From: Microbispora corallina
GTDB lineage: Bacteria > Actinomycetota > Actinomycetes > Streptosporangiales > Streptosporangiaceae
Assembly: GCF_016863035.1 (NCBI RefSeq)
Contig: NZ_BOOC01000010.1
Location: 1-64,000 of the forward strand
Reading direction: 5' to 3'
Length of the DNA stretch: 64,000 bases
A program made the position numbers and the translations under genes. The notes beneath the pieces were generated by a model that was not told the DNA's origin, searched no databases, and was given only the letters and a program-made list of their open reading frames with translations. Below, piece after piece: positions 41,557 to 44,229 of the stretch. How positions within the stretch are numbered: the first letter of the stretch is position 1; each line of letters begins with the position of its first letter.

Positions 41557-42081
41557 ATGAGCACCGGTTTCAAGGCGACGCGCGACGGCGTCTCCATCCA
41601 CCTCGACCCGGGTGAGGTGTCGATCCTGCGGTCGCTGGTGTCGCAGATCCTGGGCCTGGTCGAGCCGGGCTCGACGGGCGACGACCCGCTGGAGCGCGCT
41701 CTCGGCATCGGCTCGGCCGCCGCGCCCGCCGACCCCGTGCTCGCCCGGCTGTTCCCCTCGGCGTACGCCGACGACGAGGAGGCGGCCGACGAGTTCCGGC
41801 GCTACACGGAGGCGACGCTCCGCGACGGGAAGCGGGCCGACGCGGCCACCCTGCTGGAGACGGCGGCGCCCGGCAGGCTGCACCTCACGTCCGAGCAGGG
41901 GCAGGCGTGGCTGCGGGCCATCAACGACGTGCGGCTCGCGCTGGGCGTCCGGCTGGAGGTCACCGAGGAGATCCACGAGGAGATCGCGGCGATGTCCGAG
42001 GACGACCCCCGCTATCCGGCGCTGGTGACCTACGACTGGCTGACCTACCTGCAGGACACCCTGGTCCGCGCGCTTTGGTAG
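41557..42081 (+). CDS. DUF2017 family protein
   Basis: This 174-residue cytosolic protein belongs to DUF2017, found in actinobacteria between clpS and the JAMM protease gene. GAGGAGGGG precedes the ATG. Conserved features are HLDPGEVSILRSLVSQIL, RLFPSAYADDEEAADEFRRY and VTYDWLTYLQDTLV. The function is unknown. It has 9 bp to the next start, so clpS, DUF2017 and the JAMM gene form an operon. Confidence 0.9.
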   Translation: MSTGFKATRDGVSIHLDPGEVSILRSLVSQILGLVEPGSTGDDPLERALGIGSAAAPADPVLARLFPSAYADDEEAADEFRRYTEATLRDGKRADAATLLETAAPGRLHLTSEQGQAWLRAINDVRLALGVRLEVTEEIHEEIAAMSEDDPRYPALVTYDWLTYLQDTLVRALW

Positions 42082-42090
42082 TTTGCCCGC

Positions 42091-42504
42091 ATGCTGACGA
42101 TCTCACGCGAGCTGGTCGACAGGATCGTGGCCCACGCCCGGGCCGACCACCCCGACGAGGCGTGCGGCGTGGTCGCCGGTCCGGCCGGCTCCGACCGGCC
42201 CGAGCGGTTCGTCCCCATGGAGAACGCCGAGCGGTCGCCCACGTTCTACCGCTTCGACTCGATGGAGCAGTTCCGCGTGTGGCGTGAGATGGACGACCGG
42301 GACGAGGTGCCGGTGGTCATCTACCACTCCCACACGGCGACCGAGGCCTACCCCTCGCGGACCGACGTCAGCTACGCCTCCGAGCCGGACGCCCACTACG
42401 TCCTGGTGTCCACGGCCTCCGACGACCCGCAGTTCCGGTCCTTCCGCATCGTCGAGGGCGTCGTCACCGAGGAGGACGTCAAGATCGTGGAAGCGTACGG
42501 CTAG
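42091..42504 (+). CDS. JAMM/MPN+ zinc metalloprotease (Mec-like)
   Basis: The 137-residue JAB1/MPN protease has a full JAMM motif, E23, H79, H81 and D92 (VVIYHSHTATEAYPSRTD). In Mycobacterium the homologue Mec+ releases cysteine from the CysO-cysteine adduct made by CysM. The cysO and cysM genes follow here, so the same role is likely. In this genome it may also trim the two residues after Gly-Gly of CysO. The gene ends 19 bp before the leader ORF. Confidence 0.92.
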   Translation: MLTISRELVDRIVAHARADHPDEACGVVAGPAGSDRPERFVPMENAERSPTFYRFDSMEQFRVWREMDDRDEVPVVIYHSHTATEAYPSRTDVSYASEPDAHYVLVSTASDDPQFRSFRIVEGVVTEEDVKIVEAYG

Positions 42505-42523
42505 ACTGGCGGCATGCCCATGG

Positions 42524-42673
42524 ATGACGCCCGCCGCGTGTCGTCTCCGGCTGTGCCGCGTCGCCGGGTGCGCCCCGGATCTCCTGTTCGGCCGTGCCTG
42601 TTCGCGCACACGCCGTCCGTCGTCGTGTACGACTGTCGCTGAGCGTTCCGCGCCGGAATCCACACCCACCTGA
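42524..42673 (+). CDS. Cysteine-rich leader peptide upstream of cysO-cysM
   Basis: This 49-codon ORF begins MTPAACRLRLCRVAGC and has five cysteines (6, 11, 16, 26, 35). The RLCRVAxC element is the hallmark of putative leader peptides preceding sulfur-assimilation genes in actinomycetes. It lies 63 bp before cysO. TAGACT at 42502-42507 could be the -10 for a transcript starting just before the ORF. The stop codon is part of a hairpin arm. It probably couples cysteinyl-tRNA supply to cysO-cysM expression by ribosome stalling; that mechanism is inferred. Confidence 0.72.
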   Translation: MTPAACRLRLCRVAGCAPDLLFGRACSRTRRPSSCTTVAERSAPESTPT

Positions 42674-42701
42674 CCATGTTCCAATCAGGTGGACGCCCAC
42701 C
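42666..42701 (+). promoter_or_regulatory. Alternative hairpins after the leader ORF
   Basis: CCACCTGA (42666-42673, including the leader stop codon) pairs perfectly with TCAGGTGG (42685-42692). The GGTGG part of the second arm can pair instead with CCACC (42697-42701). The two structures exclude each other, as in attenuators. No U tract follows. The cysO ribosome binding site AAGGAG is at 42719-42724. Confidence 0.5.
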
Positions 42702-42735
42702 AGTGACGACAAATGATCAAGGAGATTGAGCCGCG

Positions 42736-43014
42736 ATGGCCATCGAGGTCCGCATTCCGACCATCCTCCGCACCTACACCGATGGCGCCAAGGCGGTCGA
42801 CGCCACGGGATCCACCCTCGAAGAGCTGATCGGCGACCTGGAGTCGCGCCACCCCGGTCTGAAGGACCGGCTGGTGGACGGGGGCGCCCTGCGCCGCTTC
42901 GTGAACGTCTATCTCAACGACGAGGACGTCCGTTTCCTCGGCGGCCTGGAGACTCCCGTCTCGGACGGCGACACGGTGACCGTGCTGCCGGCCGTCGCGG
43001 GCGGAGCCCGCTAG
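42736..43014 (+). CDS. cysO: Ubiquitin-like sulfur carrier protein CysO (MoaD/ThiS)
   Basis: The 92-residue beta-grasp protein carries sulfur as a C-terminal thiocarboxylate for CysM-dependent cysteine synthesis. The sequence follows mycobacterial CysO: MAIEVRIPTILRTYTDG, RRFVNVYLNDEDVRFLGGL and DTVTVLPAVAGGAR. Unlike the mycobacterial protein, which ends in Gly-Gly, this one has two extra residues (Ala-Arg) after Gly-Gly, so it needs trimming before adenylation, presumably by the JAMM protease encoded upstream. AAGGAG lies 11 nt upstream. Its TAG stop is followed directly by the cysM ATG. Confidence 0.93.
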   Translation: MAIEVRIPTILRTYTDGAKAVDATGSTLEELIGDLESRHPGLKDRLVDGGALRRFVNVYLNDEDVRFLGGLETPVSDGDTVTVLPAVAGGAR

Positions 43015-43962
<948 letters not shown>

Positions 43963-44095: not shown

Positions 44096-44229
44096 GTGAT
44101 CTTGCAGAAGCGTGTGTGCAGCGCGCGGACCAGCGCCGCCACTCGTCGTGGTCGTGGTTTCGGCGCGCGATCCCACGCCCACGGGCGGCGCCGCCCAGGT
44201 CCGCTCGCCACGTGCTTCTGCAAGATCAC
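44096..44229. repeat. 134-bp palindromic element with 16-bp terminal inverted repeats
   Basis: GTGATCTTGCAGAAGC (44096-44111) recurs as an exact inverted copy at 44214-44229. Beyond these arms similarity continues (GTGTG against CACGTG; a GGACC block in both halves), so the whole element could fold into a long imperfect hairpin. It lies between the convergent cysM and DUF3352 genes and ends 11 bp from the latter's stop. It has no ORF of its own. It could be a MITE, a REP-like element or a long bidirectional terminator. Confidence 0.7.

Follow-up and report, generated by a model that had tools for sequence, protein, structure and literature searches.

A probable cysteine leader peptide and an adjacent SigR-type promoter ahead of cysO-cysM in Microbispora corallina and its relatives

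In Mycobacterium tuberculosis, where the route is established, cysteine is made by way of a CysO thiocarboxylate with the products of cysO and cysM. The presence of the same two genes in Microbispora corallina (assembly GCF_016863035.1, contig NZ_BOOC01000010.1) raises the question of how they are controlled, and whether the DNA ahead of cysO encodes a leader that responds to cysteine. The window analysed here is the whole stretch of 64,000 nucleotides at positions 1 to 64,000 of the contig, and the features described below lie on its forward strand. Profile matches identified a gene for a mec-type JAMM/JAB peptidase (Prok-JAB, 42091–42504; Pfam PF14464, 110.5 bits), cysO, encoding a sulfur carrier protein of the ThiS family (42736–43014; Pfam PF02597, 67.6 bits), and cysM, encoding a cysteine synthase (43015–43962; TIGR01136, 362.6 bits, over the cut-off), with a DUF2017 gene upstream of this neighbourhood (NCBIfam and Pfam matches). 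The Shine-Dalgarno (SD) sequence of cysO, AAGGAG, was read from the sequence at 42719–42724. CysO terminates in VAGGAR, and since it ends in GGAR and not in a bare GG, C-terminal trimming may be needed, perhaps by the adjoining JAB peptidase. It should also be noted that a perfect 16-base inverted repeat, GTGATCTTGCAGAAGC, was seen by eye 3′ of cysM (44096–44111 and 44214–44229), with its arms 102 nt apart.

A sequence-only reading of this locus had proposed that an ORF at 42524–42673 is a cysteine leader peptide, in which a ribosome stalled at Cys codons would switch between two hairpins, A:B and B:C. The ORF exists as described, with 49 codons followed by TGA, five Cys codons and the string RLCRVAGC. 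Its conservation across relatives had been set beforehand as the test of its role, and none was found. The register was read in 25 rows, comprising the own genome, 21 Microbispora-type relatives and three Actinomadura-type rows, with the match of the last three to the register being a coincidence. Among these rows the Cys codons vary, early in-frame stops occur in L009, L010, L015, L113 and L114, and the stop codon is common only to L001 (the own genome) and L004, with L110 terminating earlier; neither the Cys codons nor the stop nor the frame is conserved. The pN/pS ratio in this frame was 1.6 and 3.7 in the 22-locus Microbispora-type set and 2.3 in the core of the 115 loci introduced below, and the product (P0001) matched no NCBIfam or Pfam family. 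Although the string LCRVAGC forms part of known leaders, e.g. RRAVDLCRVAGCLC (L230), this likeness was judged to be a coincidence, and the final Cys codon of RVAGC is TGC, not TGT. Being unconserved in the 25-row register and having pN/pS above 1, the ORF was rejected as a leader. Its letters are present and the A:B hairpin is conserved, but a five-Cys ORF acting through competing hairpins A:B and B:C can be given hardly any credence in the face of these results. What survived was the kind of element proposed, a cysteine leader peptide before cysO-cysM, now attached to an ORF at 42514–42642 that is read in another frame and has one conserved Cys and not five. This ORF, its −10 box, a SigR-type promoter under arms A and B, and an ACGAC element before the SD had all lain outside that reading.

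The ORF at 42514–42642 encodes a peptide of 42 residues, MPMDDARRVSSPAVPRRRVRPGSPVRPCLFAHTPSVVVYDCR, with the C-terminal end LFAHTPSVVVYDCR. On the evidence of an HMM search, its position and its pN/pS ratio, it is probably a conserved cysteine leader peptide, one that is known in kind but belongs to a new sequence family. The codon table of 115 loci gave the core V-Q-x-[FY]-L-F-x-H-x-[PR]-x-x-V-V-Y-D-C (42586–42636), from which the own genome deviates with R in place of Q and C in place of F/Y. The peptide matched no NCBIfam or Pfam family. A leader profile (A1) built from 15 peptides gave matches in 231 of 341 genomes of the family and in 33 of its 68 genera, with one match per genome; in a sample of the class, 12 of 296 genomes had a match, every one within the own family. 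A scan of named genomes for the leader gave 114 relatives, and the 80 that were kept belong to Microbispora, Microtetraspora, Planotetraspora, Streptosporangium, Nonomuraea, Herbidospora, Sphaerisporangium, Actinomadura and other genera. Among the 120 of 154 matches listed, nearly all database names are hypothetical, uncharacterised or unnamed, with the exceptions, from one source, of a universal stress protein (P0048) and a DUF397 protein (P0103). One entry of the leader family (P0079) is filed under Mycobacterium tuberculosis, and is probably from a mislabelled or contaminated assembly. A literature search, with most subscription papers outside its scope, returned in the texts covered no description of this leader.

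The placement of the leader was read in fetched loci, the figure of 231 of 341 being the tally of the whole search. A CysO search gave matches in 59 of 60 genomes, and 56 cysO loci were read; together with 120 loci fetched via the leader this made 176, one of which (L127) is without cysO where its contig ends. The strict leader motif stood before cysO in 25 of the 56 cysO-fetched loci, with 31 being without it. Of the leader-fetched loci, 119 contain cysO, and every one of these has a leader ahead of that gene (114 with the strict motif and five variants, read partly by eye). No fetched locus had the strict motif anywhere else. As some genomes were duplicated from two collections, the 139 strict-motif loci were reduced to 115 non-redundant ones; the five variants (L164, L175, L203, L210 and L213), which by eye also carry TGT, are outside the 115. 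As in an attenuator, a short ORF thus appears directly before the biosynthetic gene that it would regulate, judging from its position and its frame-specific conservation.

Conservation of the frame was seen in a pN/pS ratio of 0.31 in the core (115 loci) and of 0.20 in the Microbispora-type set, against 1.4–2.3 in the other frames, the codon and substitution counts here and below being pooled over loci and ignoring relatedness. The L-F, H and V-V-Y-D-C residues are invariant in the 115 loci. The His codon is CAC or CAT in a ratio of 95:20 and the Leu codon CTC, CTG or CTT in a ratio of 58:46:10, and this synonymous variation suggests that the peptide itself is conserved, beyond the DNA. The last codons of the core behave differently, with TAC GAC TGT being invariant in 115 of 115 loci, the two Val codons being GTC in 107 and 109 of the 115 (GTC accounts for 657 of 1124 Val codons in cysO), and pS being as low as 0.13 in the last leader codons against 0.51 further upstream. 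The result suggests that both peptide and RNA are under constraint. The invariant Cys codon at 42634–42636, presumed to be the sensing codon, is the one conserved codon for the product of the pathway and holds a fixed place; it is TGT in all 115 loci, 110 of which were chosen regardless of codon, with five of the seven loci picked for TGT from a pattern listing (L202–L207 and L215) falling within the set. By contrast, the cysO and cysM genes at these loci have TGC and TGT in a ratio of 248:13. The N-terminus of the leader is variable and the entire peptide can be as short as 19 residues. Since the distance from the Cys codon to the stop also varies and the motif ends at the Cys, the working site is more plausibly the Cys codon than the stop codon.

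A similar codon preference was found in a second group of leaders, those of the putative leader peptide family NF042934 (cis_reg_atten), which have a motif of about RxxxDLxRVxxxLC that differs from that of the new leader. Both are short Cys leader ORFs with TGT as the terminal motif Cys. The NF042934 profile (cut-off 27 bits) gave no match up to an E value of 10 with the leader of the window, with two forms of it from other genera or with P0001. Leaders of this family occur in 79 of 118 genomes of the class. In 35 loci, made up of five from the own genome and 30 others (L229–L258) that are mostly best-scoring and non-random, the last motif Cys codon is TGT in 35 of 35, with the other Cys codons within these matches being TGC in 39 cases and TGT in 7. 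The five leaders of this type in the own genome (L221–L225, on contigs C30, C3, C9, C3 and C5), of which four are over the cut-off and one just under, each have TGT as the last Cys codon, and the gene after L223 resembles by eye a TauD-type dioxygenase. In L053 and L256, which represent one genus of another family, an NF042934 leader lies directly before cysO. That two leaders with no profile match between them occupy one and the same place and share UGU is the strongest argument for cysteine sensing by the new ORF. ACGAC, considered as a possible mark of Cys leaders in general, was found within 160 nt after the NF042934 stop in 11 of 30 rows, a count without a shuffle control; one of the 30 rows was a false match on the other strand.

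Polycysteine leaderless sORFs ahead of cysteine genes in mycobacteria, reportedly described by Canestrari and colleagues in 2020, are said to respond to cysteine. They are presumably linked to NF042933 (Ms5788A) and NF042936 (Ms4527A). These leaders have runs of Cys codons, whereas the new leader has one conserved Cys preceded by residues with which it forms a conserved segment of 17. A leaderless transcript is a further mycobacterial trait, for which the new leader has the matching −10 spacing but no −35 element was found. The −10 box TAGACT (42502–42507) lies 6 nt 5′ of the leader ATG as part of a probable leaderless promoter, and the TAG stop codon of mec forms part of this box. Of the 115 loci, 113 have a TANNNT box with an in-frame start 6 or 7 nt further on, compared with 1.6 in shuffles; the start is ATG in 107 and GTG in 6. 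This spacing suggests a leaderless mRNA, which would probably start at ATG 42514. A scan of 42000–43200 found no sigma-70-type promoter with a −35 element as well.

Leaderless leader peptides have been detected by RNA-seq in Streptomyces lividans, where the eight leaders listed depend on Leu, Trp, Ala, Ile, Met or Thr and none on Cys (PMC8079986). For M. smegmatis, a later paper speaks of cysteine genes controlled through translation attenuation by Cys leaders (PMC13236596, citing Canestrari 2020). Seliverstov et al. (2005) described Cys leader ORFs which, like the new leader, precede actinobacterial cys operons and have no terminator (PMC1262725).

Between the leader and cysO, a motif scan identified a SigR/SigH-type promoter with a −35 element GGAAT (42655–42659) and a −10 element GTT (42678–42680) separated by a spacer of 18, in agreement with GGAAY-N18-GTT. 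Of 118 leader loci, 102 have the motif GGAA[TC]-N17-19-GTT no more than 200 nt from cysO, where 1.05 would be expected; among 36 loci without the strict leader motif, five of which have the variant leaders named above, the count was 29 (0.2 expected). The spacer was 18 in 97 of 102 cases with the leader and at 24 of 30 motif places without it. The own genome has a sigR gene (TIGR02947, 353 bits) adjoining rsrA (TIGR03988, 105 bits); another SigR-type gene (308 bits) lies in a separate part of the genome. SigH of M. tuberculosis directly controls mec-cysO-cysM with a consensus of GGAAYR-N17-GTT (PMC4803200). The regulon described there involves the same genes and likewise a GGAAT-N18-GTT promoter, but the promoter is assigned to mec, whereas in Microbispora it lies between the leader and cysO (PMC4803200). 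In S. coelicolor, cysM is barely expressed without diamide and is induced with it (PMC4340878).

This promoter is located under the hairpin of the sequence-only reading. Arm A, CCACCTGA (42666–42673), pairs perfectly with arm B, TCAGGTGG (42685–42692), and the two arms flank the SigR-type −10 element. The hairpin is retained among relatives despite a stem sequence that differs from cluster to cluster, and it scored p ≤ 0.05 against shuffled flanks in 45 of 99 loci with both leader and SigR motif (mean z 1.9), compared with 3 of 25 loci without the leader ORF (mean z 0.7). Comparison by this shuffle test and by consensus folds thus indicates that A:B is real and more than chance. Its location around the −10 element suggests that transcription from the SigR-type promoter would begin within or close to arm B, giving an RNA without arm A and the leader; from the promoter spacing, the start is expected at about 42686–42690. 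A transcript starting beyond 42692 had been named as evidence against the original leader, and the predicted start comes near to that. The claim of a competing hairpin stood as far as the letters go, as GGTGG of arm B can pair with CCACC of arm C (42697–42701), but consensus folding chose B:C in none of eight genus groups, which leaves this alternative with little support.

Comparison favoured another pairing instead of the alternation of A:B with B:C, namely that of GUCGU in the Val-Val codons (42622–42626) with ACGAC (42706–42710) before the SD. ACGAC is the commonest 5-mer before the cysO start (18.5 over 23 clusters, with AGGAG at 16.3), the clusters being a rough guard against relatedness with no tree behind them. 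It is present in 97 of 115 leader loci against 5 of 31 loci without the leader, with 22% expected from shuffles. When the Val-Val 5-mer of each locus itself (mostly GTCGT) was taken, its reverse complement occurred in the window before the SD in a weighted 19.2 of the 23 clusters; adjacent registers of this repeat reached no more than 11.0, and other places no more than 5.6. Consensus folding formed GUCGU(C):(G)ACGAC in four of eight groups (Microbispora, Microtetraspora/Planotetraspora, Nonomuraea and Sphaerisporangium), and in Herbidospora gave GUGGU:ACCAC, a compensating change; in Actinomadura, Streptosporangium and the CPGR group it did not select this helix. Compensation was thus seen in one clade, and L129 and L156 deviate by eye without it. 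A separate complementarity was noted between ATCTCCT in the leader (42579–42585) and AGGAGAT at the cysO SD (42720–42726), which match perfectly, and which by eye do so in several Microbispora but not all.

Folding models gave mixed results for this pairing. Its modelled probability was above 0.5 in 41 of 91 loci, and the helix between ORF and pre-SD region was better than shuffles (p ≤ 0.05) in just 19% of 115 loci (mean z 1.0). With a ribosome mask at the Cys codon, modelled SD openness rose from 0.365 to 0.409, against 0.419 with control masks elsewhere; a second run gave 0.382 and 0.425. Openness increased by more than 0.1 in 27 of 115 loci and decreased by more than 0.1 in 10. As its gain was below that of the control masks, the Cys-codon mask was rejected as proof of SD release. 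The modelled SD openness of the SigR-type RNA was 0.58 against 0.38 for the long RNA, a difference that a shorter RNA favours anyway, with the start-codon region equally open in both (0.42). ACGAC lies 25 nt 5′ of the cysO start codon, at the margin of the footprint that a 30S subunit would be expected to cover. In view of the weak helix and mask results, the Val-codon:ACGAC switch before the cysO SD is best taken as a supported proposal, although a likely one. Rfam gave eight weak matches, none close to the gathering score, and folding of the entire region did not surpass that of shuffles (z −0.04). In erm-type translational attenuation, a ribosome stalled on a leader alters the pairing near the SD. 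The present proposal differs from it in that the signal would be amino acid supply and the pairing lies before the SD and not over it. Attenuators of the trp type with an intrinsic terminator have a terminator hairpin followed by a U tract, and no such structure was found for the cysO leader.

The best explanation of these features, which we regard as slightly better than an even bet, is a cysteine-responsive leader that probably acts on cysO translation and is bypassed by SigR. From a promoter with a −10 box that overlaps the mec stop, a leaderless mRNA would start at ATG 42514, and a ribosome would translate the 42-codon leader, in which UGU at 42634, read by wobble, stands at the end of the conserved LFxHxPxVVVYD stretch of the nascent chain. 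A shortage of Cys-tRNA would keep the ribosome waiting at UGU, where it would cover GUCGU in the upstream Val codons. When cysteine is plentiful it would depart, GUCGU would pair with ACGAC and enclose hairpin A:B, and translation of cysO-cysM would be lowered. Under thiol-oxidative stress the internal SigR-type promoter would produce an mRNA without the leader, which may thereby escape this control. In its most specific form, in which the lone UGU sensor of a new leader family drives an RNA switch before the SD and the SigR promoter inside it overrides the switch under oxidative stress, the proposal is possible, but we put it at somewhat less than even.

The leader and its signal could be the same and the output different, with Rho terminating transcription before cysO once the ribosome leaves, i.e. 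under plentiful cysteine. No intrinsic terminator (hairpin with U tract) was found in 42000–43200, so that the remark in the sequence-only reading that control may be translational or Rho-dependent stays sensible, and Rho was weakly suggested for Cys leader ORFs of Mycobacterium without conserved terminator hairpins (PMC1262725). Nevertheless, the conserved hairpin and the ACGAC by the SD suit translational control better, and we consider termination by Rho unlikely, with perhaps one chance in a handful or a little more. The nature of the signal could also be different. A single Cys codon is few for a sensor of starvation, which counts against the best explanation. Conservation of some 17 residues with synonymous change goes beyond what counting of codons would need; with the variable N-terminus and the peptides as short as 19 residues in total, this is compatible with an arrest peptide, in which cysteine or another sulfur compound, and not a simple lack of Cys-tRNA, would make the nascent LFxHxPxVVVYDC stall the ribosome. 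The variable distance to the stop leaves no room for arrest at a stop codon, and the TGT codon is constrained beyond its residue, which together make an arrest peptide improbable.

A pN/pS of 0.31 would also suit a small protein that works in trans, perhaps as a partner of CysO or CysM. Such a role fits poorly with the fixed place before cysO and the variable N-terminus, as well as with the scarcity of synonymous changes in the last codons and the complementarity to the pre-SD region, and it is the more improbable of the two peptide-based alternatives, with very little weight being given to it.

If the preferred reading of a cysteine-responsive leader with a SigR bypass is true, then together with the unrelated NF042934 leaders it would point to a general rule that the sensing Cys codon of actinobacterial leaders is UGU, not UGC. 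Such a rule would offer a one-codon test of how Cys leaders sense tRNA charging, and a simple means of finding more of them. For Microbispora and its relatives, cysO-cysM would be a meeting point of cysteine supply and thiol stress, and a leader that carries its own SigR bypass would account for the ability of one operon to obey both feedback and stress.
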